DNA of 40,066 nucleotides from Deltaproteobacteria bacterium (GTDB taxonomy: Bacteria; Myxococcota; UBA727; VGSZ01), in NCBI GenBank assembly GCA_016874845.1, contig VGSZ01000014.1, positions 1-40,066 on the forward strand, written 5' to 3'. This document shows, one piece after another, positions 6,327 to 28,963 of this stretch. Each line of letters begins with the position of its first letter. Position 1 is the stretch's first letter. Made by a program: the position numbers and the translations under genes. Under the pieces are notes generated by a model, which saw only the letters and a program-made list of their open reading frames with translations, had not been told where the DNA came from and did not search any database.

Positions 6327-9300
6327 ATGCAGCTGACGAATCTCCCCTCCACCGGCCCCGGCCCCGAAGAGGGCCGCGGCGACTTCGTCGACGGCGCTTT
6401 CCGGCGGTCGCGGGGTGAGAACGTCATCACGAGCCGCGACCCGGCGCGCGACTTCGCGCCGGTCTTCCGCGCGGCGGTGGATGTCGCGCGCGTCGACGAC
6501 GCCGTCGCCGCCGCGCACCGCGCGCAGCCCGCGTGGCAGGCGCTCGGTGTAGAGGGCCGCAAGAAGCACCTGCTCGCGCTCAAGGCCGCGTTCGACGAGA
6601 ACGTCGACCTCATCGCGCGCGCCATCGTGCGCGAGATGGGCAAGCCGCTGCGTGAGGCGCTCATCGAGGCGAAGTCGCTCGGCGACCGCGTCACTCTCGT
6701 GCTCGAAGACGGCCTGAAGCGCATCGAGACGTTGAAGCCCGCTGGCGTCGTTGGCGAGGCGCGCGCCCACCCGCAGGGCGTGCTTGCCGTGCTCGGGCCG
6801 TACAACTTTCCCTGCCACCTGATGAACAGCCACATCATCCCGGCGCTGGCGACGGGCAACACCGTCGCCGTCAAGCCGAGCGAGATCGTGCCGTTGTGCG
6901 GCGAGCTGTACGCCCGCTGCGTCGAGCGCGCCGGGCTGCCGCCGGGCGTGTTCAACCTGGTGCAGGGTGGCGGCGACGTCGGCCGCGCGTTGGTGGCGCA
7001 CCCCGACACCCACGGCGTCCTGTTCACCGGCTCGTGGAAGACCGGCCGCGCCATCAGCGAGGCGATCCTCGACCAGCCGCACAAGATCGCGGCGCTCGAG
7101 ATGGGCGGCAAGAACGTCGCCGTCGTCTGCGACGACGCCGACCTTCCGCAGGCGCTCGCCGCCGTCGTGCAGGGCGCCTTCCTGACCGCGGGCCAGCGCT
7201 GCACGGCGACGTCGCGCTTGCTCGTCTTCGAGAAGGTCGCCGAGCGCTTCCTCGACGCTCTCGTCGCCGCCACCCGCGAGCTGCGCCCCGGCGACCCGAT
7301 GGACATGGCCACCGCCTTCGGCCCGCTGTCGACCAAGGACGCCTTCGACAAGTTCACGCGGCTGCGCGGGCTCGCGCCCGCCTTCGGCTGCGAGACGCTG
7401 CTTGCCGGCACCGCGCTGCCCGGCGGCGCGTTCGTGACGCCGTCCATCCACCTGCTGCCGAAGAAGGACGGCCGCGTCATCGACGCCAACGGCTACCTCG
7501 ACGAAGAGCTCTTCGGGCCGGATCTCGCGGTCGAGATCGTCGCCGACCTCGACGAGGCCATCGCCCGCACCAACGCGCTGCCGTTTGGCCTGTCGAACTC
7601 GATCTTCACCGTCGATGCCGCGAAGTTCGAGCGCTTCTACGAGCGCACGCGCACCGGCTGCGTCAACTGGAACCGCAGCACCAACAACGCCAGCGGCAAG
7701 CTGCCCTTCGGCGGCGTCGCCAAGAGCGGCAACCAGCGCCCCGCCGGTATCGACGCCGTGCGGTTCACGACCTATCCCGTCGCCATCCTGCGCGGCGAGC
7801 CCGGCGAGGTGCAGCTCGAGCCGCCGTTTGCGGCGGCGTTCCGCGCGGGCGAGGAGCGGCTGAAGCTGAAGGTCGACCGGCTCGCGCTTCGTCATCGCGT
7901 CGAGGCGCTGCTCGAGCGCTACCGCATCTACCTCGACGACGTGCGCGGCCCCGACGTGCTCGTGCCCCTTGAGCAGCTCACCGACCTCACCGTCGAGGAC
8001 AACCTCCTCGATGACGACGACCTGCTTGCGCGCCTGCAGCCCTACGCCCGCATCGAGGAGCCGCACCTCGTGCTGACGGTGCCCGACGTCGACTCCGACG
8101 ACGACGACATCGCCGAGGCCTTCCTCGCGACGGTGACGGCGCTGTTAGACGACATCGCCCGTGACAACCCGGTGCACCTGCTGCGCTTGCAGCCTCGGCA
8201 GATCCGCCGCCCGCCAAGCGGGCGGCTGCCGCGGTCCGAGGCGATGCTGCGACGGCTGTACCGCGGCGAGTTCGTGCCGAAGGAGAAGAAGGAGCCGGTC
8301 ATCGATCTGGGCTGGTCCGACGGTGCGTACATGTCGTCCATCGACGACGACGCGCTCATCGTGCTCGACGCCGGCTCGCAGATCGCGTCGCTCGGGCTCG
8401 GCTTCTCGGCGGGCCGCTTCCTGCGCGCCCTCGACGACGGCCTGCTCGGCGACGCGCTGGTGGCGAACCCCGACACCGAGGCCATCGGCGTCGACCGCGG
8501 CGTCCTCGACGACTACGCCCGGCTGCTGCTGAAGCAGGCGTGGCCGGGGCTGCGTCACGTGTCGTTCACGGCGGCGGGCAGCGAGGCCAACGAGAAGGCC
8601 TTCGACCTCTGCCGGCTGCATGGGCCTGGTGGCCGGCGGGTCATCGCGTTCGAGGGCAGCTTCCACGGCCGGACGCTGGTCTCGCTGCACGCGACGTCGA
8701 ACGCCGAGAAGCGCAAGCCGTTCGAGTTCAAGGGCTACGAAGCGACGTTTGTGCCGTTTCCGCGCTGGAGCGATCCACGCGAGGAGCCGCGCTTCGCCGA
8801 CGCGTGGGTGGCGGCGTGGTCGACGGGGCAGACGCCCGACGACGAAGGCGACGCGCTGCTGCGCGCCGAGATCGAGTCGCTGGTGGCGGTGCGCGACCAG
8901 ATCAAGAAGGGCGACGTCTGCTGCGTGATCGTCGAGCCGATGCAGGGCGAGGGCGGCGACAACTACGCCACCGCGCGCTTCTTCAATGGCCTGCGCGCGC
9001 TGACCCGCGGCTTCGGTGTACCGCTCGTCTTCGACGAGGTGCAGGTCGGCTTCGGCACCGGCGGACCCTTCTGGTGGCACGCGCTGTTCAACCTGAAGAA
9101 CGCGCGCGGGCAGACAGACGGGCCCGACTGCGTGACGACGGCGAAGAAGGCGCAGGTCGGCGCCTGCTTGAGCGTGTGGCCCGATCCCCGGCCGGCGTCC
9201 ACCCATGTCGCGCAGGTGCTGCGCGGGCGCCTGCACGCCGAGGGCATCCTCGAAGAGAGCGCGAAGTCCATCGAGACCGAGGTGCAGGAGCGGCTGTGGG

Positions 9301-11681
9301 CGTTGGCCGTCGACTACCCGGCGCTCGTCGCCAATCCGCGCAACGTGGGCTGGATCTTCGCGTTCGATCTGCCGAGCGGTCACCTCGCCAACCAGCTCAT
9401 CAACCAGCGCTTCTACCGCGGATTCATGGCCTACACCGCCGGCGACAAGACCGTGCGCTTCCGCCTCAACGCGGCGTGGACGACGAAGGAGCTCGATCAG
9501 CTGTTTGCCGGGTTGCGCGAGGCGCTTAACGCCATCGCGATGAAGACCCGCGGCGTCGAGCCCGCGAAGCAGCGCGAGGCGATGGAGACCTACGTCGCGC
9601 CCCGGTGGGAGGAGGGCCCGTCGACGACGCAGGGCGAGAGCGCGCGCCAGTCGGGGGGACCGTTCGCGCAGAACTACGAGACGCTGAGCGAGGACCCGCC
9701 GCGGCTCTTGCGCTGGATGAGCCACCTGCCGCGGGGCCCCCTCGAGAAGGTGTGTGACCGCGTGCTCGCGATGGAGGGCCAGTACGACGATGCCAAGGTC
9801 GAGGAGGCGCTGCGGCGGCTGATGGGGCGCGAGCGCGCGTGGGCGTTCCCCTCGCAGGTCATCGAGCGGTTGCGCGCGGTCTCTGACGAGCTCGACCGCG
9901 CCGACAAGCCGTTGCACGCCTACGAGGAGCTGACGGCGCAGCTCGGGCTCGAGCCGGTGCGCGTGCTGGCCGAGGTGCTCGGTGCGCGCGTCGTCGTGCT
10001 CGATCCGGGCGAGTGGGGCGACTACGCCGACAAGATCGTCGAGATCGAGGTGGCGACCTACGAAGAGGGCCGGCGCGACAGCGAAGAGGACCTGCGTCGG
10101 ATGGTGCAGGGCGAGGGCGGCGTCGGCGTGCTGCTCGTGCGCTACACCGACGTGGGCGAGCGCGTGCTCGGCTACGCGTTCGGCGGCCCGGTGGAGCAGT
10201 ACACCTCCGACGGCCCGCGTGAGGACGTCATGAACGGCCGGCACAACACCTTCTACTCGAGCAACATCACGGTGGCGCCGACGGCACGCAGCGCCGGGCT
10301 CGGGCGCCGGCTCAAGAGCGCGCAGGTGCGGCGCGTCGCTGAGCTCAAGGACACGGCGGGGCAGCCGCGCTACCAGTTCATGACGGGCCGCAACCGTCTG
10401 GGCTTCACGCGGGAGATGGCGGCGATCAACCGGCTCTTCGGCGCCTACGTCGTCGAGCACTTCCGCGGTAACCAGTACGGCGACCTGAGCGGACAGGCGC
10501 TCTACTACCGCATCCCCCTCAGGCGGCCGCGCGCGCCGACGGCGCTGCCCGAGCAGCCGTCGTGGGCGACCTACGCGTCGACGACGACGTCGATCGTCGG
10601 CAACGCGCCGCTCATCGACTGGGCCAGCTCGGTGCAGGCACCGCTGGGCCAGCGTCACCCGCGGCTGGTGCGCGCGTTGTTCGACGGCGAGTTCACGCGC
10701 ATCGTCGGCACGAAGCTGACGCTGTCGAACTGGGCGACGCCCGACATCGTCCGCTACGCCGAGACGCTGATGAACGTCGGTCCGCGCGGGCTGCCGCACT
10801 CGTACTTCACGTCGAGCCGCGCCGAGCTCATCGACAAGTCCATCCGCATGCTGCGCGTGAAGCGCCCGGGCGCCGACGTCGTGCTCGGCCTCGAGCGCGC
10901 GTACGTGGGCCACACGACGGCGGCGGCACGCTCGTTGACCGATCCGCTCGGCGAGCAGCTGCCGTTCGGCTGGTTCGACTGGCCGCGCATCCCGCACCCC
11001 GCCGAGGTGGGCACCGACGCCGCGCTGGGCGCGCTGATGGCGACGGTCAACCGGCTCGGCCCCGACCGCGTCCTCGGGCTCTACGTCGAGCTCGTCGGTG
11101 AAAGGACCGGCTACACGCTGCCCGAGGACTTCCAGGCCGGGCTGCAGGCCCTGCACGAGGACACGGGCGTGCCCATCGTCGCTGTCGAGACGGCGTCGTC
11201 GCTGGGGCGGCTGACGCCGAACCTATGGGCGTGCGACGGCGTGCCGCTGCAGCCCAATGTCGTGCTCTGGTACGCCGGCGCACAGCTCGGCCACGTCTTC
11301 GTCGACGACAGGTACTACGTCGGCAAGCCGCTGACGTTGATCTCGACGTGGGATGGGGACGAGCTGTCCATCGTGCGCGCCCACCACCACCTGCTCGAGG
11401 CGCGGCACCTGCTGCGCGAGGGCCGCGGCGCCGCCTTCGCGCGGGCGCTCGACGACAAGCAGCTGCCCGGTCGTCGCCACGGCGGCGGGCTGTGGCAGGT
11501 GGTCGAGCTGGGCGACGAGCTGCGCGCCGACGCCGTCCGCAAGGCGGCCATCCGGCGGGGCCTGCGGCTGGGCAAGGGGCTCCCCGGCCGTGTCGTGCTC
11601 GCGCCGCCGCTCGGCGTCGACGACGAGCAGATCGCCACCGGCGTGGCCCGGCTCGAGGCGGCGATGCGCGAGGTGCTCTAA
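6327..11681 (+). CDS. Giant fusion enzyme: aldehyde dehydrogenase - class III aminotransferase - GNAT acyltransferase - pseudo-aminotransferase
   Basis: One unbroken frame encodes 1784 residues. (1) Residues about 15-490 are an NAD(P)-dependent aldehyde dehydrogenase resembling succinylglutamate-semialdehyde dehydrogenase (AstD). It has the GPYNFP motif near 157, general base Glu258 in LEMGGK and nucleophile Cys292 in AGQRCT; the 34-residue spacing matches the family. (2) After an acidic linker (490-680), residues about 680-1085 are a class III PLP aminotransferase: GSEAN at 751-755, PLP-binding Asp903 in FDEVQVGFG, Schiff-base Lys in AKK (940/941). (3) After a helical linker, about 1237-1398 is a GNAT domain with the acyl-CoA motif RSAGLG (1321-1326). 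(4) About 1415-1784 is a second aminotransferase-like fold lacking both the Asp and the Lys. The likely chemistry is transamination of an omega-amino group to a semialdehyde and its oxidation to an acid, with acyl-CoA-dependent N-acylation. The substrate (lysine, ornithine or another diamino acid) is inference. Confidence 0.88.
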   Translation: MQLTNLPSTGPGPEEGRGDFVDGAFRRSRGENVITSRDPARDFAPVFRAAVDVARVDDAVAAAHRAQPAWQALGVEGRKKHLLALKAAFDENVDLIARAIVREMGKPLREALIEAKSLGDRVTLVLEDGLKRIETLKPAGVVGEARAHPQGVLAVLGPYNFPCHLMNSHIIPALATGNTVAVKPSEIVPLCGELYARCVERAGLPPGVFNLVQGGGDVGRALVAHPDTHGVLFTGSWKTGRAISEAILDQPHKIAALEMGGKNVAVVCDDADLPQALAAVVQGAFLTAGQRCTATSRLLVFEKVAERFLDALVAATRELRPGDPMDMATAFGPLSTKDAFDKFTRLRGLAPAFGCETLLAGTALPGGAFVTPSIHLLPKKDGRVIDANGYLDEELFGPDLAVEIVADLDEAIARTNALPFGLSNSIFTVDAAKFERFYERTRTGCVNWNRSTNNASGKLPFGGVAKSGNQRPAGIDAVRFTTYPVAILRGEPGEVQLEPPFAAAFRAGEERLKLKVDRLALRHRVEALLERYRIYLDDVRGPDVLVPLEQLTDLTVEDNLLDDDDLLARLQPYARIEEPHLVLTVPDVDSDDDDIAEAFLATVTALLDDIARDNPVHLLRLQPRQIRRPPSGRLPRSEAMLRRLYRGEFVPKEKKEPVIDLGWSDGAYMSSIDDDALIVLDAGSQIASLGLGFSAGRFLRALDDGLLGDALVANPDTEAIGVDRGVLDDYARLLLKQAWPGLRHVSFTAAGSEANEKAFDLCRLHGPGGRRVIAFEGSFHGRTLVSLHATSNAEKRKPFEFKGYEATFVPFPRWSDPREEPRFADAWVAAWSTGQTPDDEGDALLRAEIESLVAVRDQIKKGDVCCVIVEPMQGEGGDNYATARFFNGLRALTRGFGVPLVFDEVQVGFGTGGPFWWHALFNLKNARGQTDGPDCVTTAKKAQVGACLSVWPDPRPASTHVAQVLRGRLHAEGILEESAKSIETEVQERLWALAVDYPALVANPRNVGWIFAFDLPSGHLANQLINQRFYRGFMAYTAGDKTVRFRLNAAWTTKELDQLFAGLREALNAIAMKTRGVEPAKQREAMETYVAPRWEEGPSTTQGESARQSGGPFAQNYETLSEDPPRLLRWMSHLPRGPLEKVCDRVLAMEGQYDDAKVEEALRRLMGRERAWAFPSQVIERLRAVSDELDRADKPLHAYEELTAQLGLEPVRVLAEVLGARVVVLDPGEWGDYADKIVEIEVATYEEGRRDSEEDLRRMVQGEGGVGVLLVRYTDVGERVLGYAFGGPVEQYTSDGPREDVMNGRHNTFYSSNITVAPTARSAGLGRRLKSAQVRRVAELKDTAGQPRYQFMTGRNRLGFTREMAAINRLFGAYVVEHFRGNQYGDLSGQALYYRIPLRRPRAPTALPEQPSWATYASTTTSIVGNAPLIDWASSVQAPLGQRHPRLVRALFDGEFTRIVGTKLTLSNWATPDIVRYAETLMNVGPRGLPHSYFTSSRAELIDKSIRMLRVKRPGADVVLGLERAYVGHTTAAARSLTDPLGEQLPFGWFDWPRIPHPAEVGTDAALGALMATVNRLGPDRVLGLYVELVGERTGYTLPEDFQAGLQALHEDTGVPIVAVETASSLGRLTPNLWACDGVPLQPNVVLWYAGAQLGHVFVDDRYYVGKPLTLISTWDGDELSIVRAHHHLLEARHLLREGRGAAFARALDDKQLPGRRHGGGLWQVVELGDELRADAVRKAAIRRGLRLGKGLPGRVVLAPPLGVDDEQIATGVARLEAAMREVL

Positions 11682-18453: not shown

Positions 18454-18732
18454 TCAGCGCAGGCGGATCGTGACCTGGGTACGGTCGACCTTGACGCTCA
18501 GGATCGACGAGAACGGCAGGATCAGCTGCTCTTCGCCGAGCAGCTTGATGACGATGTGGTCGGCGCCGACGTCACCGATGCCGTAGCGGGAGTCCTGCAG
18601 CTTCTCGGGCCCGGGGCCGAGCACGAGCAGCTTCTTGTCGGCGGTCTGCTCGACGAGGACGTGCTGCAGCGTGCGCACGGGCGGGGCCTTGGTCGCGGCG
18701 GGGGTCGGGGCGGAAGAGCGAGGATCGGGCAT
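18454..18732 (-). CDS. Small conserved-looking protein of unknown function
   Basis: This is a 92-residue protein with no signal peptide. A Pro/Ala-rich N-terminus (about 1-20) is followed by a compact segment predicted to be mostly beta-strand (LQHVLVEQ, KKLLVLGPG, DHIVIKLL, QLILPFSSILSVKVDR, VTIRLR). The alternating hydrophobic pattern suggests a small barrel, but no family is recognised. The start is the last plausible ATG before the divergent heme O synthase promoter region. The ribosome site is weak. It is convergent with the Kelch gene. Confidence 0.6.
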   Translation of the reverse strand: MPDPRSSAPTPAATKAPPVRTLQHVLVEQTADKKLLVLGPGPEKLQDSRYGIGDVGADHIVIKLLGEEQLILPFSSILSVKVDRTQVTIRLR

Positions 18733-18836
18733 GTCCGGTTTTTGCCACGGGGACGGCGCGGGGGCGACCCTGACGACCTTGCGCGCGCGCCGTCGCCCGG
18801 TCCCGACGCCGCCCAATTCGCCCGACGCCGTTGAAT

Positions 18837-18851
18837 CTGGACAGTGTCCAG
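18837..18851. promoter_or_regulatory. Perfect palindrome, putative operator upstream of heme O synthase
   Basis: CTGGACAGTGTCCAG has 7-bp arms around one central base. It lies 80 bp before the cyoE ATG in a 199-bp divergent region, directly after TTGAAT, which could be a -35 element. Perfect dyads of this size in intergenic DNA are typical of TetR-, Rrf2- or LexA-type operators; the regulator is not identified. Confidence 0.55.
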
Positions 18852-18931
18852 GGTCCGCGCTCGGTGCGGCGGGACTCCGCATCGACGTCGACGCCGTTGA
18901 CGCGTGCCCTCCTGATCGGTCCCATACGGAC

Positions 18932-19930
18932 ATGACCAGCGTCGCCGTCGCCGACCGCTCGCCGCCGTCCTTCGAGCCTGGCGCCGCAGCCGGCGTCGCA
19001 GCCGGCGCGCCCGGGGCCCGCGCCTCGTCGTCGACAAGGGTGCTCGCCGACGTGGTGTCCCTCGGAAAGCCGCGCATCGCGGCGATGGCGGCGGTGGTGG
19101 GCGCTGGCACGTTCTGCCTGTCGACGCCGTCGTTCGCCGCCGCCGCCGTCGCGCGTGGCGCCGTCGGTCTGCTCGGCGTCGTGCTGCTGGTGATGGGCGC
19201 GGGGGCGCTCAACATGTGGGTCGAGCGCGACGTCGATGCGCTGATGGTCCGCACGCGGGACCGCCCGTTGGCGGCGCGGCGCCTGTCGCCGCTGGTCGCT
19301 TGGCTGGTGGGCGTCGGGCTCGTCGTCGCGTCGCTGCCGCTGCTGCGCGTCGGCGGCAACGACCTGACTTGCGGCCTCGGGCTCTTCAGCCTGTTCCTGT
19401 ACGTGCTCGTCTATACGCCGATGAAGCGCACAAGCCCGTGGTCGCTCGTCGTCGGCGCGGTGCCGGGGGCGATGCCGGCGTTGATGGGCGGCACCCTGGC
19501 GGCGGGCGTCGTCGAACGCGCCGGCGCGGCGATGTTCGGGCTCGTGTTCCTGTGGCAGCTGCCGCACTTCCTCGCGATCTCGCTGTACCGGCAGGACGAG
19601 TACCGCGCCGCCGGGCACCGCTTGTTCTCGACGGCGCTCGGCATGCGGACGACGCAGCTGTGGATCGTGGGCACGGCGGCGCCGCTCGCGCTCTTCGGCG
19701 TCGCGCTGTGGCCGCTCGCGCTGGGCGGCGTCGTCACTGGCGTCACGGCGGTGGTGGTCGGCCTCTGGTTTCTCGCCGTGTGCGTCGGCGGGCTGCGGCT
19801 GCGGGCCCGCGCCGACGTCGACGCCTGGGCGCGGCGGGTCTTCTTCGGCACGCTGATCTGGCAGACGGTGGTCTTCGGCGCGCTCGCCGCCGACCGCCTG
19901 CTCGTGGTCGCGGCGCGCCACGCGGGGTAG
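18932..19930 (+). CDS. cyoE: Protoheme IX farnesyltransferase (heme O synthase)
   Basis: The 332-residue polytopic membrane protein belongs to the UbiA prenyltransferase superfamily, CtaB/CyoE type. Key motifs are the first Asp-rich region, here N-MWV-E-RDVDALM with Glu in place of the first Asp, followed by RTRDRPL, then YTPMKRTSPWS and HFLAISLYRQDEY. It transfers a farnesyl group to heme b to give heme O, which heme-copper oxidases use directly or as the precursor of heme A. A 45-residue Ala/Ser-rich N-terminal extension precedes the first helix. The SCO1 gene begins 6 nt downstream, so the two form an oxidase-assembly operon. Also named ctaB. Confidence 0.95.
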   Translation: MTSVAVADRSPPSFEPGAAAGVAAGAPGARASSSTRVLADVVSLGKPRIAAMAAVVGAGTFCLSTPSFAAAAVARGAVGLLGVVLLVMGAGALNMWVERDVDALMVRTRDRPLAARRLSPLVAWLVGVGLVVASLPLLRVGGNDLTCGLGLFSLFLYVLVYTPMKRTSPWSLVVGAVPGAMPALMGGTLAAGVVERAGAAMFGLVFLWQLPHFLAISLYRQDEYRAAGHRLFSTALGMRTTQLWIVGTAAPLALFGVALWPLALGGVVTGVTAVVVGLWFLAVCVGGLRLRARADVDAWARRVFFGTLIWQTVVFGALAADRLLVVAARHAG

Positions 19931-19936
19931 CCAGCG

Positions 19937-20626
19937 ATGACGTCGGAGCCCTCGCCGTCCTCTCCCGATGCGTCGTCGCCGACGTCGACGCGCCAGCCAC
20001 CGTGGAAGAACCCGTTCGTCATCGCGTTCGTCGCCGGCGCGATCACGCTGACGGTCTTGCCCTTCCTCGCCAGCCAGACCCTGCGGGCGCCGCCGGCCGT
20101 CGCCTCGCTGGGGCCATGGCAGCTCGTCGACCAGGACGGCAAGGCCATCGGCAGCGAGACGCTGCGCGGCCAGGTGTGGATCGCGTCGGTGTTCTTCTCG
20201 CGCTGCCCGAGCGTGTGCCCGAAGCAGCAGCGTGCCTTCGCCTCGATCCTGCGTCACGTCGACGATCTGCGCGCGCCCGGCAAGCAGCCGGTCCGCCTCG
20301 TCAGCTTCTCTGTCGACCCTGGCTTCGACTCCCCAGAAGTCTTGCGCGCCTGGGCGACGAAGCAGGGCGTCGACCTGTCACGGTGGTCGCTGGTCACCGG
20401 ACCCGAGGCCGACCTGAAAAAGCTGCTCGTCGAGCGGATGTTCCTCGAGATCGGCGACAAGACCCCGGTGCCCGGCACCGACCTCTTCGACATCGCCCAC
20501 GCCAGCCGCTTCGTGCTCGTCGACCAGAACGGCGACGTGCGCGGCTACTGGCCCACCGACGACCTGGGCCGCGGCAACCTGATCAACGCCGCGCGCCTGC
20601 TGTGGAAGAAGGGTCCGCGGCCCTGA
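19937..20626 (+). CDS. SCO1/SenC/PrrC-family copper chaperone for cytochrome oxidase
   Basis: The 229-residue protein has one N-terminal membrane helix (about 25-48) and a periplasmic thioredoxin-like domain. The copper-binding CxxxC is at Cys90 and Cys94 (SRCPSVCP), and the distal ligand His188 is in the typical DIAHASRFVLVDQNG segment. SCO proteins deliver Cu to the CuA site of subunit II. The gene lies 6 nt after cyoE, which fits joint maturation of one terminal oxidase. The oxidase subunits themselves are not in the window. Confidence 0.94.
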   Translation: MTSEPSPSSPDASSPTSTRQPPWKNPFVIAFVAGAITLTVLPFLASQTLRAPPAVASLGPWQLVDQDGKAIGSETLRGQVWIASVFFSRCPSVCPKQQRAFASILRHVDDLRAPGKQPVRLVSFSVDPGFDSPEVLRAWATKQGVDLSRWSLVTGPEADLKKLLVERMFLEIGDKTPVPGTDLFDIAHASRFVLVDQNGDVRGYWPTDDLGRGNLINAARLLWKKGPRP

Positions 20627-20685
20627 CGACGGCGACGGCGACCACCCACCGCCGGCGACCGCCGATGCTCCGTCGGACCGTCAAC

Positions 20686-20803
20686 GGCTGACGGAAGGTC
20701 GAGCGAGACGATGCGCCGGGCGAGGAGCGCCGCGAGCGTGGTGGACGCCGGTGAGCGAGCGCCGCCGGCCGGCAGCGAAGTCGCAGCCGTGCTTCCGTCA
20801 GCC
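20686..20803. repeat. Widely spaced 12-bp inverted repeat in a convergent gap
   Basis: GGCTGACGGAAG (20686-20697) and CTTCCGTCAGCC (20792-20803) are exact reverse complements separated by 94 nt. Together they span most of the gap between SCO1 and yggX, and the second arm almost touches the yggX stop codon. It might form a long-range terminator stem. Nothing else is seen in this 179-nt gap. Confidence 0.6.
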
Positions 20804-20805
20804 TG

Positions 20806-21081
20806 TCAGTGTTTCTCGGGGACGAAGTCCGGCGGCAGGTTGCTGCCGTCGCCGAAGAAGAATTGCTCGCACTGCTGCTTCAACAGCTGCCGCGCCGACT
20901 TGTCGGACAGGTCGATGCGGTACTCGTTCATCAGCATCTTCTGGTGCTCGAGCCACTGGCCCCACGCCTCCTCCGAGACTTGCGCAAGGATCCGCGCCCC
21001 AAGCTCGCCGGGAAACGGCGCCTTCGCCAACGCCAGAGCGGTCTTCTTCAGTTTCACGCACTGCACGGTCTTGTCGCTCAT
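20806..21081 (-). CDS. yggX: Fe(II)-trafficking / oxidative-damage-protection protein YggX
   Basis: The 91-residue protein matches YggX across its length: N-terminal Cys region (TVQCVKLKK), PGELGARI, EEAWGQWLEHQKMLMNEYRI and a C-terminal PEKH like the family's PED/PEK end. YggX protects Fe-S clusters from superoxide damage and is linked to cytosolic iron handling. AGGAGG lies 5 nt before the ATG at 21081; an in-frame GTG two codons upstream abuts that site and is rejected. The gene is divergent from a peroxiredoxin gene across 84 bp, so both may respond to oxidative stress. Confidence 0.93.
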   Translation of the reverse strand: MSDKTVQCVKLKKTALALAKAPFPGELGARILAQVSEEAWGQWLEHQKMLMNEYRIDLSDKSARQLLKQQCEQFFFGDGSNLPPDFVPEKH

Positions 21082-21165
21082 GGCCACCTCCTACGCTCTC
21101 GGGCTGGATGCGCAAGCGAGGGGACACGCGCTCCACGCCGCCGCCGACTTGCGATAGCATGCACC

Positions 21166-21648
21166 ATGTCCGACGCTCCCCTGGTGGGCAGCATGGCCCT
21201 CGACTTTGCCGTCCCGCCGACGGAGAACCGCCTCGTCCGCCTTGACGACTACGTCGGCCGCTGGCTCGTTGTGTTCTTTTATCCGAAGGCCTTCACCCCC
21301 GGCTGCACGAAGGAGGCAGGCGCCTTCACCGCGCAGAGCCACGCGATCGAGGCGCTGAGCGCCAGCGTCCTTGGCGTCTCGGTCGACGACCTCGCCGTGC
21401 AGTGCGCCTTCGCCCGCGAGCAGCACCTGGGCTTCGCGCTGCTCGCCGACGTCGACCAGCCGATGTTGAAGGCGTGGGGCGTCAGCCGCGGGCTCCTGCC
21501 GTTCGACGAGCGTGTGACCTTCATCGTCGACCCCGACGGCGTCGCGCGCGCGCGCTTCCACCACGAAGTGCAGGCGACGAGGCACGTCGACGACGTCCTC
21601 GCCTTCCTGCGCGCGCAGGTCCCTGGCCCGGCGTCCTCGTCGCCATGA
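21166..21648 (+). CDS. Peroxiredoxin (AhpC/TSA, BCP-like) without the usual resolving cysteine
   Basis: This 160-residue thioredoxin-fold protein has peroxidatic Cys47 in FTPGCTKEAGAF. In Escherichia coli BCP a resolving Cys sits five residues later; here that position is Gly. The only other candidate is the Cys in DLAVQCAFA (about residue 84). It may therefore act as a 1-Cys enzyme or use another partner. It reduces H2O2 and organic hydroperoxides in the cytoplasm. The last codons overlap the next gene by 4 nt (ATGA), implying translational coupling to an SDR. The start was chosen at the family N-terminus (VGSMALDFAVP); longer frames overlap yggX. Confidence 0.92.
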   Translation: MSDAPLVGSMALDFAVPPTENRLVRLDDYVGRWLVVFFYPKAFTPGCTKEAGAFTAQSHAIEALSASVLGVSVDDLAVQCAFAREQHLGFALLADVDQPMLKAWGVSRGLLPFDERVTFIVDPDGVARARFHHEVQATRHVDDVLAFLRAQVPGPASSSP

Positions 21649-22475
21649 GCGCGCTGTTCTCGTCCACCCGCGACACCTTCGCCCCCGGCCTGTTCGACGG
21701 CGTCACCGTCGCCGTCACTGGCAGTGGCTCGGGCATCGGCCGCCTCACCGCGATCCGTTTCGCCGCACTTGGCGCGCGGGTCAGCCTGTGCGGCCGCCGC
21801 CCGCACGCGCTCGAGGAGTCGAAGCTGCTCGTCGACGAAGCCGCCTGCGCCGCCGGCTTCAAGACGTCGTGCTTCGTCGCAAGCGCTGACGTCAAGCAGC
21901 CCGCTACGCTCGCCGCGTGGGTCACGGACACCGTCGATGCGCTGGGCCCCGTCGACGTCCTCGTCTGCAACGCCGGCGCGAATTTCCTCGCCCCGGCGGC
22001 GAGCATCAGCCCCAACGGCTTCGCCACCGTCGTGGGCACCGTGCTGCTCGGCACCTGGAACACCGTGCACGCGTGGTTCCCACATCTGTCCGAGCGCGGC
22101 CGCGCCAGCATCGTGATGATGGCGGCGACCAACGGCTACACCGCATCGCCGCTGATGGCCCACTCGGGCGCTGGCAAGGCGGGCATGTTGAACCTGACCC
22201 AGACGCTGGCTGTCGAGTGGGCGGGGCTTGGCATCCGCGTCAACGCCGTCGCCCCCGGCCCTGTCGACACCGAGGGCGCCAACGCCCGCCTGTGGGCTGA
22301 CGCCGAGGCGCGCGCGCGGGTCGAGCAGACGGTGCCGCTCGGCCGCATGGGGAACGCGCGCGACTGCGCCGACGCCGTGCTGTTCCTGTGTTCGCCGGCG
22401 GCGTCGTTCATGACAGGAACGACGCTGACCATCGACGGCGGCAACTTCTTGAAGCCGCTGCCGGCCCTTCTGTGA
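21645..22475 (+). CDS. SDR-family oxidoreductase resembling 2,4-dienoyl-CoA reductase
   Basis: The 276-residue Rossmann-fold protein has the cofactor motif TGSGSGIGR and the NAG motif (CNAGANFL). In the active-site helix the usual YxxxK Tyr is not present: the segment reads MAHSGAGKAGMLNLTQTLAVEW. This closely follows peroxisomal-type 2,4-dienoyl-CoA reductases (DECR2), which lack the Tyr and have His-Ala-Gly-Ser-Ala-Lys there. The following IRVNAVAPGPVDTEGA also fits that branch. The likely reaction is NADPH-dependent reduction of polyunsaturated acyl-CoA. It overlaps the peroxiredoxin gene by 4 nt and precedes an enoyl-reductase-like gene by 31 nt. Confidence 0.86.
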   Translation: MSALFSSTRDTFAPGLFDGVTVAVTGSGSGIGRLTAIRFAALGARVSLCGRRPHALEESKLLVDEAACAAGFKTSCFVASADVKQPATLAAWVTDTVDALGPVDVLVCNAGANFLAPAASISPNGFATVVGTVLLGTWNTVHAWFPHLSERGRASIVMMAATNGYTASPLMAHSGAGKAGMLNLTQTLAVEWAGLGIRVNAVAPGPVDTEGANARLWADAEARARVEQTVPLGRMGNARDCADAVLFLCSPAASFMTGTTLTIDGGNFLKPLPALL

Positions 22476-22506
22476 CGATGTCGCCGCGCGCGCGAAGGAG
22501 ACGACG

Positions 22507-23469
22507 ATGAAGCAGGTGTTCTGTGTCGGCACCGACGACGACGCCAGCCGCGCGGTGCGCGTCGACGACGTCGCCGATCCTGCCTGCCCCGACGACGGCG
22601 TCGTCGTCGCGGTCAAGGCGCGTCCGATAAACCCTGCCGACCTGCTGCTGCTGAACGGGCGGCACGTGTTCTCGCCGACGCTGCCGGCGGCGGTGGGCAT
22701 CGAGGGCGCGGGCGTCGTGGTCGCTGCGGGGCCGCGCTCGCGACTGACGGCGGGCACCGTCGTCGCCATCCCGCAGGGCGGCACATGGCGCGAGCAGATG
22801 GCGCTGCGCGACGACCAGGTGCTCGCCTTGCCCGCCGACGTCGAGGTCGAGCAGGCGGCGATGCTGTGTGTGAACCCGTTCACGGTGATGGGCATGCTCG
22901 AGGGCGTCGCCGCCGGCGCCACGGTGATCGTCAACGCCGGCACGTCGGCGGTGTCGAAGCTCGTGATCGCGGTCGCCCGGCAGCGCGGGATCGCCGTTGT
23001 TGCCGTCGTGCGCGACGCCCGCGCCACCGATGAGCTGAAGGCGCTGGGCGCCGTCGCGGTGCTCGTCGACGGCGACGACCTGGCGGCGCGGGTGGCGCCG
23101 GTGGCGCCGTCGCCGGTGGTGCGGGCGCTCGACGCCGTGGCGGGCAGCGCCAGCGGTCGCCTCTACGACTGCGTCGCCGACGGCGGCGACCTTGTGGTGT
23201 ACGGGCTGTTGGCGAGCGACCGCGTGGAGCTGCCGGCGGCGCGCCTGGTCTTTCGCGACGTGACGGTGCGCGGGTTCTCGCGGCTGCGGATCTTCGCGGC
23301 GATGCCTCCCGCGCGCCGGCGCGAGATCACCGACGAGCTGGTGGCCCTGCTCGCCGACGGCACGCTGCGCGTCGACGTCGAGGCGCGCTATCCCCTCGCC
23401 GACGTGGCCGCCGCTCTCGCCCACCAGACCCGCCCCGGGCGACGCGGCAAGGTCCTGCTCGTGTCCTGA
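22507..23469 (+). CDS. MDR-family oxidoreductase, trans-2-enoyl-thioester reductase (MECR)-like
   Basis: The 320-residue protein is a zinc-free medium-chain dehydrogenase/reductase. Motifs in order are RPINPADLLLLNG, an LPAAVGIEGAGVV segment, GTWREQM, the CVNPFTVMGMLEG helix and the nucleotide-binding VIVNAGTSAVSKLVIAVAR. These match the MECR/Etr1 branch (enoyl-ACP/CoA reductases, NADPH) better than general quinone reductases. No zinc ligands are visible. AAGGAG precedes the ATG. Its neighbour is a dienoyl-CoA-reductase-like SDR, so the pair may handle double bonds in acyl thioesters. Quinone oxidoreductase is the alternative. Confidence 0.85.
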   Translation: MKQVFCVGTDDDASRAVRVDDVADPACPDDGVVVAVKARPINPADLLLLNGRHVFSPTLPAAVGIEGAGVVVAAGPRSRLTAGTVVAIPQGGTWREQMALRDDQVLALPADVEVEQAAMLCVNPFTVMGMLEGVAAGATVIVNAGTSAVSKLVIAVARQRGIAVVAVVRDARATDELKALGAVAVLVDGDDLAARVAPVAPSPVVRALDAVAGSASGRLYDCVADGGDLVVYGLLASDRVELPAARLVFRDVTVRGFSRLRIFAAMPPARRREITDELVALLADGTLRVDVEARYPLADVAAALAHQTRPGRRGKVLLVS

Positions 23470-23567
23470 ACAGACCGTGCCGTTCGCGCAGGGCCGGGCC
23501 GTCTGCTTGCTTCGCACCGACCGCCTCGGTGAGAGTCGGGCTGCCGCCGAAGCGGCCAGAGGCTCCC

Positions 23568-24548
23568 GTGCAGAAGCGTGTGTCGCGTTCGATCCTCGCC
23601 GCGTTGTCCGTCGTCGTCGCCACCGCCTGCGCGACGCCCGCGCCGTCGCCGTCGTCGACGGCTGGCGCCACGCAGCCCGCGGCGCCGTCGGGGCCGCCCG
23701 CGGGGCTCGGCCGCCGCGACAACGCGGCCACGATCGGGCCCTTCGGCAGCGGGGCGCTGACGCTGCGCGCGCACCAGTCGGCCGAGTACTCGGCGACGGT
23801 CAACTCGTGGCTGCTCGAGACCGCCACCGAGGTCGCCATCGTCGACGCGCAGCTGGTGATGCCCGAGGCGCAGAAGGTCGTGGAGCTCGTGCGCTCGACC
23901 GGCAAGAAGCTCGCGTGGGTGTGGGTCAGCCACGGCCACCCCGACCACTACGCCGGCCTCGAGGCGCTGGCGACGGCGTTCCCCGGCGTGCCGCTTTATG
24001 CGCGGTCGTCCACGGTGACCGACGGGCCCGAGCTGCTGAAGAAGTTCGACGCGCCGCTGCAGAAGTTCTTTCCCGGCGAGATGACGAAGGGGCCGATGGC
24101 GCTGTCGCCCTACACCGCGGCGACCCTCGCCGTAGGCGGCGTCGAGGTGAAGATCGTCGACATCGAAGGCGGCGAGCACCCGACGTCGACGATGCTCGTG
24201 ATCCCGTCGCTGCGCGGCGCGCTCGTCGGCGACCTCGTCTACCACAAGGTCCACCCGTGGCTGAACGAGATGGACGACGTGGGCGTGCTGAAGCACGTCG
24301 ACATGCTCTCTACCCTCGCCGACGTCGACACGTTCTACCCCGGGCACGGCGAGCCCTTCGGCCGTGACTTCCTGCCCGTCTACCGCGGCTACGTCACTGA
24401 CTTCCTCGCCGAGGTGCCGCAGGCGAAGGACGGCAACGACCTCATCGAGCGCGTCTGGCGTCGCTACCCCGACTGGCGCACGATGGCGGGGCTGCGCTTC
24501 TCGGCCAACGCGTACATCGGCGCGCGCGCGTCCGGCGCCGCGAAGTAG
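23568..24548 (+). CDS. Metallo-beta-lactamase-fold hydrolase, predicted lipoprotein
   Basis: The 326-residue protein carries the MBL zinc motif HGHPDH, an acidic/Gly metal-loop (LVGDLVYHKVH) and a late His (YPGHGEPFG), so both zinc sites look intact. The N-terminus from the GTG at 23568 (QKRVSRSILAALSVVVATAC) ends in a lipobox-like ATAC. AGAGG lies 5 nt before this GTG, whereas the longer GTG start at 23529 has no ribosome site. A Ser/Pro/Ala linker precedes the fold. The substrate is unknown; lactonase, sulfatase and beta-lactamase-like activities are all possible in this family. It stands 98 nt after the enoyl reductase gene. Confidence 0.88.
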   Translation: MQKRVSRSILAALSVVVATACATPAPSPSSTAGATQPAAPSGPPAGLGRRDNAATIGPFGSGALTLRAHQSAEYSATVNSWLLETATEVAIVDAQLVMPEAQKVVELVRSTGKKLAWVWVSHGHPDHYAGLEALATAFPGVPLYARSSTVTDGPELLKKFDAPLQKFFPGEMTKGPMALSPYTAATLAVGGVEVKIVDIEGGEHPTSTMLVIPSLRGALVGDLVYHKVHPWLNEMDDVGVLKHVDMLSTLADVDTFYPGHGEPFGRDFLPVYRGYVTDFLAEVPQAKDGNDLIERVWRRYPDWRTMAGLRFSANAYIGARASGAAK

Positions 24549-24782
24549 CGCCACGTCAGCTGCACGCCAGCTCCCCGTCAGCTTCGACCGGCGGCCGCGC
24601 GTGAGCCCGCGCACGTCGGGGGAGCCATCCACGCAACGCGCGCGGAACCGGGACCCATGCGGCCGATGGGGGCCGTGATAGACGCCGTCCATGCAGCGTG
24701 CGTTGCACCGGGTTATCTTACCGCCGCCCCTTGCACGCGTCGCGCAGGCGACACCACCGGCTGCCACCACAGCCAGAGAGAG

Positions 24783-25424
24783 ATGAGCGCCATGAAGATC
24801 GGAATCCTTGGTTCGGGCAACGTCGGTCAGTCGTTGGCGAAGGGGCTCAAGGGCCTCGGCCACGACGTCGTGATTGGCAGCAGCGCCGGCAACAAGCTCG
24901 CGGCGTTCTCGGCCGAGACCGGCGTCGCCGAGCAGAAGTTCGCCGACGCCGTCGCCGGCGCCCACGTCGTGATCGTCGCGTTGAAGGGGCAGGGCGCCGA
25001 AGAGATCGTGCGCGGTCTGGCCGGCTCGCTGGCCGGCAAGGTCGTGCTCGACGCCACCAACCCCATCGCCGGCGAGGCGAAGGGCGGCATCGTGCCGTAC
25101 TTCACCGGGCCCAACGACAGCCTGCTGCAACGCCTGCAGAAGGCGGCGCCCGGCGCGAAGTTCGTCAAGTGTTTCAACTCGGTGGCGGCGCATGTGATGG
25201 TCAAGCCGCACTTCAAGTCGGGCACGCCGGCGATGTTCATCTGCGGCGATGACGCCGAGGCGAAGGCGACGACGACGAAGCTGCTCGCCGAGCTCGGCTG
25301 GGCCGCCGAGGATGTCGGGGGCAGCGAGGCCGGCAACGCCGTCGAGGCGCTGTGCCAGCTGTGGTGTGCGCCGGGCTTCCTGCGCAACGACTGGTCCCAC
25401 GCGTACGCCGTGCTACGGTCCTGA
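24783..25424 (+). CDS. NAD(P)-binding reductase of the F420-dependent NADP oxidoreductase family
   Basis: The 213-residue Rossmann protein starts with (MSA)MKIGILGSGNVGQSLAKGL and includes the NADP-specificity loop HDVVIGSSAGNK, then VVLDATNPI and FVKCFNSV, all typical of the F420-dependent NADP reductase (Fno-like) family. Many bacterial members occur where F420 synthesis is not known, so the true electron partner is uncertain. The ATG at 24783 follows AGAGAG; an alternative ATG is 9 nt later. The 234-nt upstream gap contains no gene, and no clear promoter could be called there. Confidence 0.85.
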   Translation: MSAMKIGILGSGNVGQSLAKGLKGLGHDVVIGSSAGNKLAAFSAETGVAEQKFADAVAGAHVVIVALKGQGAEEIVRGLAGSLAGKVVLDATNPIAGEAKGGIVPYFTGPNDSLLQRLQKAAPGAKFVKCFNSVAAHVMVKPHFKSGTPAMFICGDDAEAKATTTKLLAELGWAAEDVGGSEAGNAVEALCQLWCAPGFLRNDWSHAYAVLRS

Positions 25425-25568
25425 GCATCGGAGAGTGAGCAGGGCTCCGGGTCATCCTGACTGGCCATCGTCGCCGGTCGGCTCGACCCGGGCGCTTTGC
25501 GGGTAGGGATGCGGGCGTCGTTTTGAGGGGGCTGCCGCGTCGGGCTCCCTCACCGGAAGGAGATTGCA

Positions 25569-27278
25569 GTGGCTCGTACACCGCTGTTTCGTTTGCTGCA
25601 GAAGCTCGATCGCCGTCATCGCGCCCGTGATGCCGCGTCGTCGTCGGAGGCGAGCGTGGGCGCCGCTGCGGGCCCCGTCCGCATCGACCGGCGTTCGTTT
25701 CTCTGGGCCGCCGGCGCCGTCGTCGCCGCGCCGACGCTCGGAGCGGCGTGCGGCGGCAGCGAGAACCCGCCGCCGTCGTCGGGCAAGCGGGTCGCCGTCG
25801 TCGGCGGCGGCATCGCCGGCCTGCACTGCGCCTATCGCCTGAAGGACCTGGGCGCCGACGACGTCGTGCTGTTCGAGGCGCAGGACCGCATCGGCGGGCG
25901 CATGTTCTCGGACCGCACGACGTTTGCTCCGCTGAATTGCGAGCTCGGCGCCGAGCTCATCGACACCGGTCACGAGACCATGCGCGATCTGGCGGCCGAG
26001 TTCGGCATCGAGCTGCACGATTTCACCACCGACGACGCCGAGCTCGAGCTCATCGTGGCGTTCCTGGGCGGTCGCCGGGTGCCGGTGGACGAGCTGCTGA
26101 CCGCCTACGCCCCCATCGCCGCGCGCATCGACGCCGACCTCGCCACCATCGGCGGCGACGGCTACGTCACCTACGACGCGCCCAACGGCGGCGAGCTGCT
26201 CGACGCGCTGTCGATCACCGGCTGGTTCGATCGGCTCGTCGACGAAGGCGTGATCGCCGCCGACAACGTCGCCCGCCAGCTGTTCGAGCTCGCCTACACC
26301 ACCGAGTACGGGCTCGAGCCGTCGGAGCAGTCCGCGCTGAACGTGCTCTTCCTCGTGTCGACGTCGACCACCGACCTCGCGCCCTACGGCGACTCCGACG
26401 AGCGGTTCCGCGCCGCCGCAGGCAACGACACGTTCATCACGGCCCTGGGCGACCGCCTCGGCGACGTGGTGAGGAAGGGTCACCGGCTGACGGCGCTGCG
26501 GCGCGGCACCGATGGCCGGTTCACGCTGAGCTTCACGACCGCCTCCGGCGGCGTCGAAGAGACCGCCGACGAGGTCGTGCTCGCCCTGCCGTTCACGATG
26601 CTGCGCGAGGTCGCGCTCGACGACAGCCTCGCGCTGTCGTCGGCCAAGCGGGCGGCCATCGACACCATCGGCTACGGCACGAATGCCAAGCTGATGGTCG
26701 GGTTCAACGAGCCCGTGTGGCGCAACAAGCAGGCCGGCAACACGAGCAACGGCGAGGTCTACAGCGACACCGGCTTCCAATCGATGTGGGAGACCTCGCG
26801 GCTGCAGACGGCGTCGACCGAGGGCATCGCCACCAACTTCACCGGCGGCGCCCACGGCGTGGAGATCGGCGACGGCACGCCCGCCGAGCAGGCCACGGCC
26901 TTCGTCGGCGAGCTCAACGGAATCTTTCCTGGCGTTGCCGCCGCGTTCAACGACAAGGTCGCGCGCTTCCACTGGCCGACGAACGCGTTCGTGAAGGCCA
27001 GCTACGCCTGCTACCGCCCCGGCCAGTACGCCGCGATCTGCGGCGCCGAGGGCGAGCCCGAGGCCTCGGGTCACCTGCACTTCTGCGGCGAGCACACGAG
27101 CCTCGACTTCCAGGGCTACATGGAGGGCGGCGCCGTTACCGGCGCGGCGGCGGCGCTGGCCGCCGCCGAGAACGTCGGCGTCGACACCCAGGCCCTGCGC
27201 GTCGATGGCCCCGCGGCGCGCATCCTCGCCCGCGCCGACGTCGTGCGTCGCCATCGTCGGCTGCGTCGTCGTCGCTGA
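25569..27278 (+). CDS. Tat-exported flavin amine oxidase, predicted lipoprotein
   Basis: The 569-residue protein starts at a GTG with AAGGAG 6 nt upstream. About 40 polar residues precede a twin-arginine signal (IDRRSFLWAAGAVVAAPTLGAAC) that ends in a lipobox (GAAC), so a folded, FAD-loaded enzyme is predicted to be anchored outside the inner membrane. The FAD dinucleotide motif VAVVGGGIAGLHCAYRL and RIGGRMF identify the amine-oxidase family (monoamine oxidase, amino-acid oxidase, polyamine oxidase). The C-terminal FAD segment CGEHTSLDFQGYMEGG is intact. The tail ends in a strongly basic run (RRHRRLRRRR). Substrate unknown; it should yield H2O2 outside the cytoplasm. Confidence 0.92.
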   Translation: MARTPLFRLLQKLDRRHRARDAASSSEASVGAAAGPVRIDRRSFLWAAGAVVAAPTLGAACGGSENPPPSSGKRVAVVGGGIAGLHCAYRLKDLGADDVVLFEAQDRIGGRMFSDRTTFAPLNCELGAELIDTGHETMRDLAAEFGIELHDFTTDDAELELIVAFLGGRRVPVDELLTAYAPIAARIDADLATIGGDGYVTYDAPNGGELLDALSITGWFDRLVDEGVIAADNVARQLFELAYTTEYGLEPSEQSALNVLFLVSTSTTDLAPYGDSDERFRAAAGNDTFITALGDRLGDVVRKGHRLTALRRGTDGRFTLSFTTASGGVEETADEVVLALPFTMLREVALDDSLALSSAKRAAIDTIGYGTNAKLMVGFNEPVWRNKQAGNTSNGEVYSDTGFQSMWETSRLQTASTEGIATNFTGGAHGVEIGDGTPAEQATAFVGELNGIFPGVAAAFNDKVARFHWPTNAFVKASYACYRPGQYAAICGAEGEPEASGHLHFCGEHTSLDFQGYMEGGAVTGAAAALAAAENVGVDTQALRVDGPAARILARADVVRRHRRLRRRR

Positions 27279-27293
27279 CGACCGCGACGGCCG

Positions 27294-27875
27294 TCAGAAG
27301 ACGCCGGGGAGAAAGCGCTTCTTCGTGCCCATCTGCTCGGCGTAGCCGGGCAGGGCGAACAGCACGCGCTCCTCGGCGCGGATGCGGAAGAACAGCACGA
27401 CGGCGTTCAGCGCCGAGACGACGACGAGCGTGACGAAGCAGCCGTGGGCCAGCGGCAGGAAGACCAGCTCGGCGATCACGATGGCGTAGTTCGGATGACG
27501 CACGTACCGGTACGGCCCGGCGACGACGACGGCGTCGGGCTGCACGATGCGCACGTTCCAGCGCGCGCCCAGCGTCGACAGCGTCCACACCCGCGCGACG
27601 CCGAGCAGCAGGAGCGCCGCCGCCGACGTCGCGAACAACGGCGTCGAGAACGGCCGCTCGAGCAGCGCGACCTCGAGGGGGCCGAGCAAGAACGGCAGCA
27701 CGTGCAGCACGACCATGACGACGAACACCGGCTCGCGCTGCGGCCGCGCCCCGCGCGCCGTCGCCTGCGCCGTCAAGCGACGCGCGACGACGAGCTCGGC
27801 GATGCGCGCTGCGCCCATCACCGTCAACAGCACGAGATAGGCGACGAAGCCGGCGTCCACCGACGTCGTCGTCAC
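27294..27875 (-). CDS. Isoprenylcysteine carboxyl methyltransferase-like integral membrane methyltransferase
   Basis: The 193-residue polytopic protein has the ICMT/phospholipid-methyltransferase core VVVAGPYRYVRHPNYAIVI and a C-terminal RIRAEERVLFALPGYAEQMG, which form the SAM and substrate sites. The GTG start at 27875 overlaps the TGA of the type III polyketide synthase by 4 nt, so they are translationally coupled. The same pairing is known in Bacillus subtilis bpsA-bpsB, where the methyltransferase O-methylates alkylpyrones made by the PKS. That role is therefore the best inference here, rather than protein prenyl-Cys methylation. Confidence 0.88.
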   Translation of the reverse strand: MTTTSVDAGFVAYLVLLTVMGAARIAELVVARRLTAQATARGARPQREPVFVVMVVLHVLPFLLGPLEVALLERPFSTPLFATSAAALLLLGVARVWTLSTLGARWNVRIVQPDAVVVAGPYRYVRHPNYAIVIAELVFLPLAHGCFVTLVVVSALNAVVLFFRIRAEERVLFALPGYAEQMGTKKRFLPGVF

Positions 27876-28963
27876 GGCTCGCCCGTCGGCTCGCCCGTCC
27901 AGCGCCCGAGCACCATCTCGGCGGAGAAGCCAGGGCCGAACGCCGTCAGCAGGCCGCGTTGGCCGTCCTTCGGCGCGCGGCGCTCGAAGGTGTTCTTCAA
28001 GACGACGAGCACGCTGGCCGACGACAGGTTGCCGACGTCGCGCAGGCACTCGTAGCTCGAGGCCAGCGCGCCCTCTTGCAGGTCGAAGGTGCGGGCGACC
28101 TCGTCGATGACCTTCTTGCCGCCGGGGTGCAGCACGTGGAAGTCGACGTTGCTGCCGCGCAGGCCCTGGCTGTCGAGGTAGCCGAGCATCACCGGGCGGA
28201 TGGCGCGCTCGACGGCGCCGGGGATGCCCTTGTCGAGGACGAGGTGCAGGCCCGAGTCCTTGACCTCGAACCCCATGTAGCCCCAGCTGTCCTCGAACAG
28301 CCACGACTGCGACGACTCCATCGCAAAGCCGGTGACCGGGCCGGCCGTGCCGTCGTCGGCGCGGACGACGCAGGCGGCGACGCCGTCGCCGAACAGCAGC
28401 GCGCCGACGAGGGCCTGCATCGAGAAGTCCTGCCGCTGGTAGGTCAGCGAGCAGAACTCGTGGGCCACGATCAGGACGTTCCTGCCGCCGGCGGCGATGT
28501 GCTCGCGGGCGAGGCCGAGGGCGAAGGCGCCGGCGGCGCAGCCGCGCTCGGTGACCGGCAGGCGCTTGGTGGTGCGCGTCATGCCGAGGGCGGGGATGAG
28601 GTGCGCGCACAGCGCGGGGATCATGAAGCCGGTGCACGACGTCGTGATCACGAAGTCGATGTCGCCTGCCTGCAGGCCGGCGTTCACGATGGCTTCGCGC
28701 GCGGCCTGCTCGCCGAGCTCCTTGCTCGCCTCGATGAAGCGATCGTTGCGGTAGCCGAAGCCGCGCTCGACGATCGTGTCTTCGATCGTCTGCACGAGCC
28801 AGCGACGGTCGATGCCGGCGTTGCCGAGGATCTTCTTCATCCGGCCGAGGTGCCGGTGGTCGCTGCCAAGCACGCGTTCGGCGTAGACAGCTACGTCATC
28901 GCGGGTCAGCGCGTGCGGGGGCAGGGCGAGGGCGGGCTTGCAGGCGATGGCACGGGTAGGCAC
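27872..28963 (-). CDS. Type III polyketide synthase (chalcone/stilbene synthase family)
   Basis: The 363-residue protein keeps the complete catalytic triad: Cys142 (TERGCAAGAFALG), His279 (VLHPGGKK) and Asn312 (DVGNLSSASVL), with family spacing. It condenses malonyl-CoA units onto a starter acyl-CoA to give alkylpyrones or alkylresorcinols. The GTG start has GAGG 8 nt upstream (GAGGTTTCAAGTG). It is followed by a membrane methyltransferase in a 4-nt overlap, pointing to a methylated, membrane-located product. No acyl-starter-loading gene is adjacent. Starter chain length cannot be read from the sequence. Confidence 0.95.
   Translation of the reverse strand: MPTRAIACKPALALPPHALTRDDVAVYAERVLGSDHRHLGRMKKILGNAGIDRRWLVQTIEDTIVERGFGYRNDRFIEASKELGEQAAREAIVNAGLQAGDIDFVITTSCTGFMIPALCAHLIPALGMTRTTKRLPVTERGCAAGAFALGLAREHIAAGGRNVLIVAHEFCSLTYQRQDFSMQALVGALLFGDGVAACVVRADDGTAGPVTGFAMESSQSWLFEDSWGYMGFEVKDSGLHLVLDKGIPGAVERAIRPVMLGYLDSQGLRGSNVDFHVLHPGGKKVIDEVARTFDLQEGALASSYECLRDVGNLSSASVLVVLKNTFERRAPKDGQRGLLTAFGPGFSAEMVLGRWTGEPTGEP

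Follow-up and report, generated by a model that had tools for sequence, protein, structure and literature searches.

The window, a 40,066-nucleotide stretch of contig VGSZ01000014.1 read on the forward strand, carries a gene that joins four domains in the order aldehyde dehydrogenase (ALDH), class III aminotransferase (AT), GNAT and pseudo-aminotransferase (PAT). Its features are as follows.

6327-11681 (+): whole four-domain gene, 1784 aa, ATG start, stop at 11679-11681.
6384-7796 (+): ALDH domain, AstD-like, residues 20-490, with E258 at 7098-7100 and C292 at 7200-7202.
7797-8231 (+): linker, residues 491-635, with no Pfam match; absent or short in homologues of 1430-1470 aa (alignment).
8232-9551 (+): catalytic class III aminotransferase domain (AT), LAT-like, residues 636-1075, with D903 at 9033-9035 and K940 at 9144-9146.
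9552-10031 (+): linker, mostly helical (model), residues 1076-1235; absent in the short homologues (alignment).
10032-10526 (+): GNAT domain, residues 1236-1400, acyl-CoA motif RSAGLG at 10287-10304 (model, Foldseek and 32-row alignment).
10539-11678 (+): PAT domain, residues 1405-1784, with the partner-lending segment LISTWDGDE and T1674 at 11346-11348 (Pfam, residue table and alignment).

The sequence GGAG (GGAGCGCCCGATG) stands immediately 5' of the start codon, and a scan for promoters and terminators found none. All 1784 codons are uninterrupted in frame; an open frame of this length has a chance probability of about 1e-14 at local GC and its GC by codon position (0.72/0.47/0.95) is coding-like, which rules out a chance open frame in high-GC DNA. 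An overlapping minus-strand ORF (8145-11156) was dropped because the plus-strand frame is conserved as protein. The initial annotation had described one 1784-residue, four-domain chain with catalytic residues at E258, C292, D903 and K940/K941 and the motif RSAGLG (residue 1321), and each of these residues was found in place, while the four domains were borne out by Pfam, by searches with the protein cut apart and by the GNAT model. A sequencing error joining separate genes, raised there as a possible objection, is excluded by the same full chain in independent assemblies, and an assembly or frameshift artefact is likewise ruled out by the identical chain layout in many assemblies. One scan of viral contigs yielded no relative, and a viral origin was set aside.

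Of 58 genomes searched, relatives from the genus, the family and the order encode the whole chain (48-80% identity), and three more encode a shortened form of 1430-1470 residues. A scan of GTDB genomes added 30 loci, mostly titled Myxococcota, Myxococcales, Polyangia or Deltaproteobacteria, some encoding the four-domain chain and others an AT-GNAT-PAT protein without ALDH, the latter including a cultured strain, Enhygromyxa salina (L058). The architecture is thus shared by relatives of the same order and by a second clade far from them, answering the earlier question of whether related genomes have it, and the four-domain chain is a real, conserved and new architecture. Where the ALDH is not part of the chain it can be its neighbour: its gene ends two bases before the AT-GNAT-PAT gene at one locus (L059), lies immediately upstream at another (L064) and immediately downstream at a third (L076), and in carriers of family f14 the genome encodes an AstD-like ALDH separately, at another place. 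On the tree, the fused state requires at least three changes on well-supported branches, so joining or splitting of the ALDH has happened repeatedly. By the classical gene-fusion argument, an ALDH that is variously fused, adjacent and separate is evidence of parts that act jointly. No AstD-like ALDH was found in the Polyangia-type carriers searched (L057, L058, L060, L062, L066, L069, L075), where the best matches reached 1e-86 to 1e-93; these carriers have AT-GNAT-PAT together with C45 or a second AT.

Both catalytic domains were compared with curated families. The ALDH matches Pfam Aldedh at residues 34-483 (8.5e-112), its best PDB match is 3ju8, and E258 and C292 are kept in 10 of 10 ALDH-bearing homologues. 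Its nearest NCBIfam family is AstD (375 bits; the best of the non-AstD families scores 266), while its scores miss the AstD cut-offs of TIGR03240 and PRK09457 (357 versus 579 and 375 versus 514 bits). The AT matches Pfam Aminotran_3 at 652-1067 with 137.9 bits, above the gathering score, and its nearest family is lysine 6-aminotransferase (LAT, TIGR03251; 131 bits versus a cut-off of 521); with AstC it scores 72 bits. Because both domains fall under the curated equivalog cut-offs, these are likenesses and not memberships, and by this measure the ALDH is a relative of AstD rather than an AstD. AstD itself works on an N-acylated semialdehyde.

The neighbours of the fusion gene in the window encode an IMPDH, an S8 peptidase and a LolA-like protein, with no functional link to it. 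Further along, 18635-28963 holds genes for a UbiA prenyltransferase, a zinc-type alcohol dehydrogenase, a metallo-beta-lactamase fold protein, an amine oxidase and a type III polyketide synthase, possibly a secondary-metabolite cluster, and 34024-36240 (+) encodes a 738-residue protein with response regulator, DUF4388, DnaJ and TPR domains. Since the window offers no operon link, partners were looked for by co-occurrence in 195 genomes of the phylum, comprising 14 fusion carriers and 181 others; for the aminomutase and the C45 hydrolase described below, 18 further carriers from the GTDB scan were added, giving 32 carriers in all.

Four kinds of partner emerged. A C45-family autoproteolytic hydrolase adjoins the fusion in many loci and, counting unlinked cases, is present at E<1e-98 in 13 of the 14 carriers and in none of the 181 others (in the window's own genome it lies at C168); matches in 10 of the 18 more distant carriers are intermediate (1e-28 to 1e-54). 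A long KamA-family protein, homologous to lysine 2,3-aminomutase, has matches of E<1e-230 in nine of the 14 carriers and in one non-carrier among the 195 genomes. The 18 further carriers add 14 that have it, two of them with fragments, so that overall it is found in 23 of 32 carriers versus 1 of 181 non-carriers without being linked to the fusion gene. Hypergeometric values for partner association are 2e-11 and 2e-19, figures that overstate independence as the carriers are interrelated; counted by family, the association covers five of six families for the aminomutase (P 2e-4) and six of six for the C45 hydrolase (P 1e-6). In 12 genomes the fusion has a 3-oxoacid CoA-transferase gene close by, and in four (G001, G002, G003, G006) such a gene lies near the unlinked C45 gene; a second class III aminotransferase (PRK06062-like) neighbours the fusion in several loci.

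The aminomutase homologue matches lysine 2,3-aminomutase 2a5h (8.5e-73) and carries the radical SAM cysteine motif CPVYCRFC. The equivalents of D293 and D330, which bind the lysine side chain in 2a5h, are invariant in A3. Its scores of about 253-272 bits lie below the TIGR03820 equivalog cut-off of 525. EpmB was set aside as an identity for it, the long KamA-family protein being the one that co-occurs; most of these genomes also encode a second, shorter KamA-family protein, which may serve as EpmB. Among the non-carriers searched in the phylum, G019 alone encodes the long aminomutase (L098:3551-4912, minus strand); it also has an AstD-like ALDH (9e-163), and has neither fusion nor C45. In G003, the C45 gene lies beside genes with argB- and argC-like N-termini (L143:8874-11928; start sequences only), and next to the long aminomutase gene of the same genome is a gene (L092:10551-13565, minus strand) for a 1005-residue protein combining a DnaK/Hsp70-like region (1-411) with a PknB-like Ser/Thr kinase (570-846).

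The initial annotation had proposed that the chain combines steps analogous to AstA, AstC and AstD on a diamino acid such as lysine or ornithine. The general proposal is supported by an ALDH nearest to AstD, an AT nearest to LAT and a co-occurring putative N-acyl hydrolase. The choice of substrate has shifted: the aminomutase and CoA-transferase partners make beta-lysine likelier, and it is preferred to lysine or ornithine because a 3-oxoacid CoA-transferase suits a 3-oxo and not a 2-oxo product. We consider it unlikely that the substrate is instead alpha-lysine, with N2-acyl-lysine transaminated at N6, oxidised to N2-acyl-2-aminoadipate, freed by the C45 hydrolase and converted to 2-oxoadipate, the aminomutase being unrelated. 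That the AT is nearest to a lysine 6-aminotransferase would agree with such a route, as would the three f5 carriers (G009, G011, G015), in which the fusion is present, C45 accompanies it in two of three and no long aminomutase homologue was found; however, the aminomutase is present in 23 of 32 carriers versus 1 of 181 non-carriers, and a 2-oxo acid gives the CoA-transferase encoded beside the fusion no obvious task.

The two aminotransferase copies have lost complementary residues. Each subunit of a class III aminotransferase dimer lends its partner a Thr, located after the catalytic Lys, that binds the partner's PLP phosphate; the lent residue is T353 in GABA-AT and T330 in LAT. By counting in the alignment, the catalytic lysine of the AT is K940, which aligns with Lys329 of pig GABA-AT. 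The earlier assignment to Lys940/941 is thereby upheld as to the presence of the lysine and narrowed to the first of the pair, K941 being replaced by Arg in one of 13 unbiased homologues and in several others. Only the 13 homologues from the whole-protein search were used for residue counts; conservation of LISTWDG in the 30 GTDB-scan loci was excluded as evidence because that scan had used the motif as one of its two patterns. D903, K940, H780 and R782 of the AT are kept in 13 of 13, while the site aligned with T353 is R in six, V in five, A in one and T in one. In the chain itself this site is V, and compared with GABA-AT the stretch from Lys329 to T353 is about 14 residues shorter, the loop before the T353 site being gone. 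PAT, which the initial annotation had called a pseudo-aminotransferase, still matches Aminotran_3 when cut out on its own (5.6e-10, 38.9 bits) and truly lacks both the PLP Lys and the Asp; its S1673 and T1674 are nevertheless present in 13 of 13 homologues. The ordinary class III aminotransferase encoded in the same operons has Asp, Lys and Thr all invariant.

In a homodimer the partner-lent Thr would sit in the same domain as the Lys; here the Lys is in the AT and the Thr in PAT. As the losses are reciprocal, only one competent site would be left, built from both halves. AT and PAT, within one chain or across two, are therefore most likely a heterodimer-like pair with a single active site, and PAT, whose role the initial annotation had left unexplained, probably supplies half of that site. 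A model of AT-GNAT-PAT (pTM 0.76, pLDDT 78) is consistent with a defined domain arrangement, and its four best PDB fold matches are Mycobacterium tuberculosis LAT Rv3290c (TM to target 0.64-0.73), with T330 and N328 mutants of Rv3290c among the fold matches. Pseudoenzyme domains are often regulatory, and PAT might be a structural or regulatory remnant beside AT domains that form the usual homodimer across two chains; this is improbable given that the AT has lost the Thr and loop that such a homodimer needs and PAT keeps them invariant.

The GNAT domain is seen only weakly by Pfam (0.055, under the cut-off), neither Pfam nor NCBIfam offers a family for it or a match to AstA, and PDB sequence matches are weak. 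Its fold is backed by a model of 171 residues (pLDDT 92.9) whose Foldseek matches are GNAT structures, and the R/QxxGxG/A acyl-CoA motif, which the initial annotation had recognised as RSAGLG, is intact in the 32-row alignment. Those Foldseek matches include RimI, Naa60 and PatZ-type GNATs, which would suit a domain that modifies proteins, for example the enzyme itself, and so regulates the fusion rather than acylating its substrate; we think this a poor prospect, since a putative N-acyl hydrolase accompanies the fusion in 13 of 14 carriers, which agrees with a metabolite being acylated.

For beta-lysine we posit the following route. Lysine would be converted to beta-lysine by the lysine 2,3-aminomutase homologue, and the GNAT domain would acylate N3. 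The AT would then move the 6-amino group off, using its own K940 and D903 and the phosphate-binding Ser-Thr loop of PAT, and the ALDH would oxidise the resulting semialdehyde to N3-acyl-3-aminoadipate. N-acylation is sensible in such a scheme because a free 3-amino-6-aldehyde would cyclise to a five-membered ring. The C45 hydrolase would deacylate N3-acyl-3-aminoadipate, the second class III aminotransferase would convert 3-aminoadipate to 3-oxoadipate, and the 3-oxoacid CoA-transferase would activate the latter, with succinyl-CoA and acetyl-CoA as end products. The architecture, its conservation, the complementary residue losses and the co-occurrence and linkage of the partners are observations; the pairing of domains in three dimensions, the order of steps, the acyl group, the substrate, the direction and any channelling are inferred. 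That the protein is a single-chain catabolic enzyme for an N-acylated diamino acid, most likely beta-lysine, with an AT-PAT pseudo-dimer and a downstream 3-oxoadipate route, we regard as having somewhat better than an even chance. Counting against it are an aminomutase homologue that scores under its cut-off, is unlinked and is missing from the f5 carriers yet present in the non-carrier G019, the lack of an AstD-like ALDH in the Polyangia-type carriers searched, the intermediate C45 matches of more distant carriers, and the argB/argC-like genes beside C45 in G003. The full proposal, an oxidative beta-lysine pathway to succinyl-CoA and acetyl-CoA with its three middle steps in one chain and a single-chain catalytic/pseudo heterodimer as aminotransferase, is more tentative and falls a little short of evens. 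An AST-like degradation of ornithine or arginine, with the chain as a fused AstA-AstC-AstD analogue acting on N-acyl-ornithine, is very improbable: the ALDH is nearest AstD, the domain set parallels AstA, AstC and AstD and the argB/argC-like genes lie beside C45 in G003 (start sequences only), but the AT scores higher with LAT than with AstC, the GNAT has no AstA family match, and the aminomutase and the 3-oxoacid CoA-transferase would be superfluous.

If the beta-lysine model is true, Myxococcota-like bacteria, cultured Enhygromyxa salina included, would feed lysine into central metabolism by way of beta-lysine and 3-oxoadipate. The fusion would also offer a clear case of a PLP enzyme whose homodimer was turned into a single chain holding one active and one inactive copy, and the co-occurrence suggests a likely function for the lysine 2,3-aminomutase homologue and for a subfamily of C45 hydrolases. 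Among open-licence papers, no published description was found of the fusion or of a route from beta-lysine to 3-oxoadipate, a result that falls short of proving novelty.

Among known systems, the AST pathway (AstA, AstC, AstD) shares with the fusion the sequence of N-acylation, omega-transamination and semialdehyde oxidation, and an ALDH nearest AstD. Unlike AST, the fusion holds the three steps in one chain, its GNAT is not AstA, its AT is LAT-like and not AstC-like, its partner hydrolase belongs to the C45 Ntn family and is not AstE, and its substrate is probably not ornithine; we infer that it works like the AST arginine pathway without being a member of it. The Bacillus kamA-yod genes and the Pseudomonas N6-acetyl-beta-lysine route combine an aminomutase, an acetyltransferase, a class III aminotransferase, a CoA-transferase and a deacylase. 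Those systems acetylate N6 and transaminate at the 3-amino group, whereas the fusion would need the terminal amino group free for its AT and ALDH. LAT (Rv3290c) acting with an aldehyde dehydrogenase resembles the fusion in AT fold and sequence and in the aldehyde oxidation that follows, but LAT is a homodimer with two sites, whereas the fusion carries a catalytic domain and a pseudo domain in a single chain and adds a GNAT. A precedent for the AT-PAT pair is serine palmitoyltransferase SPT1/SPT2, a PLP enzyme of a Lys-bearing and a Lys-less subunit with presumably one active site (PMC6148460), which differs from AT-PAT in belonging to another PLP family and in consisting of two separate proteins.
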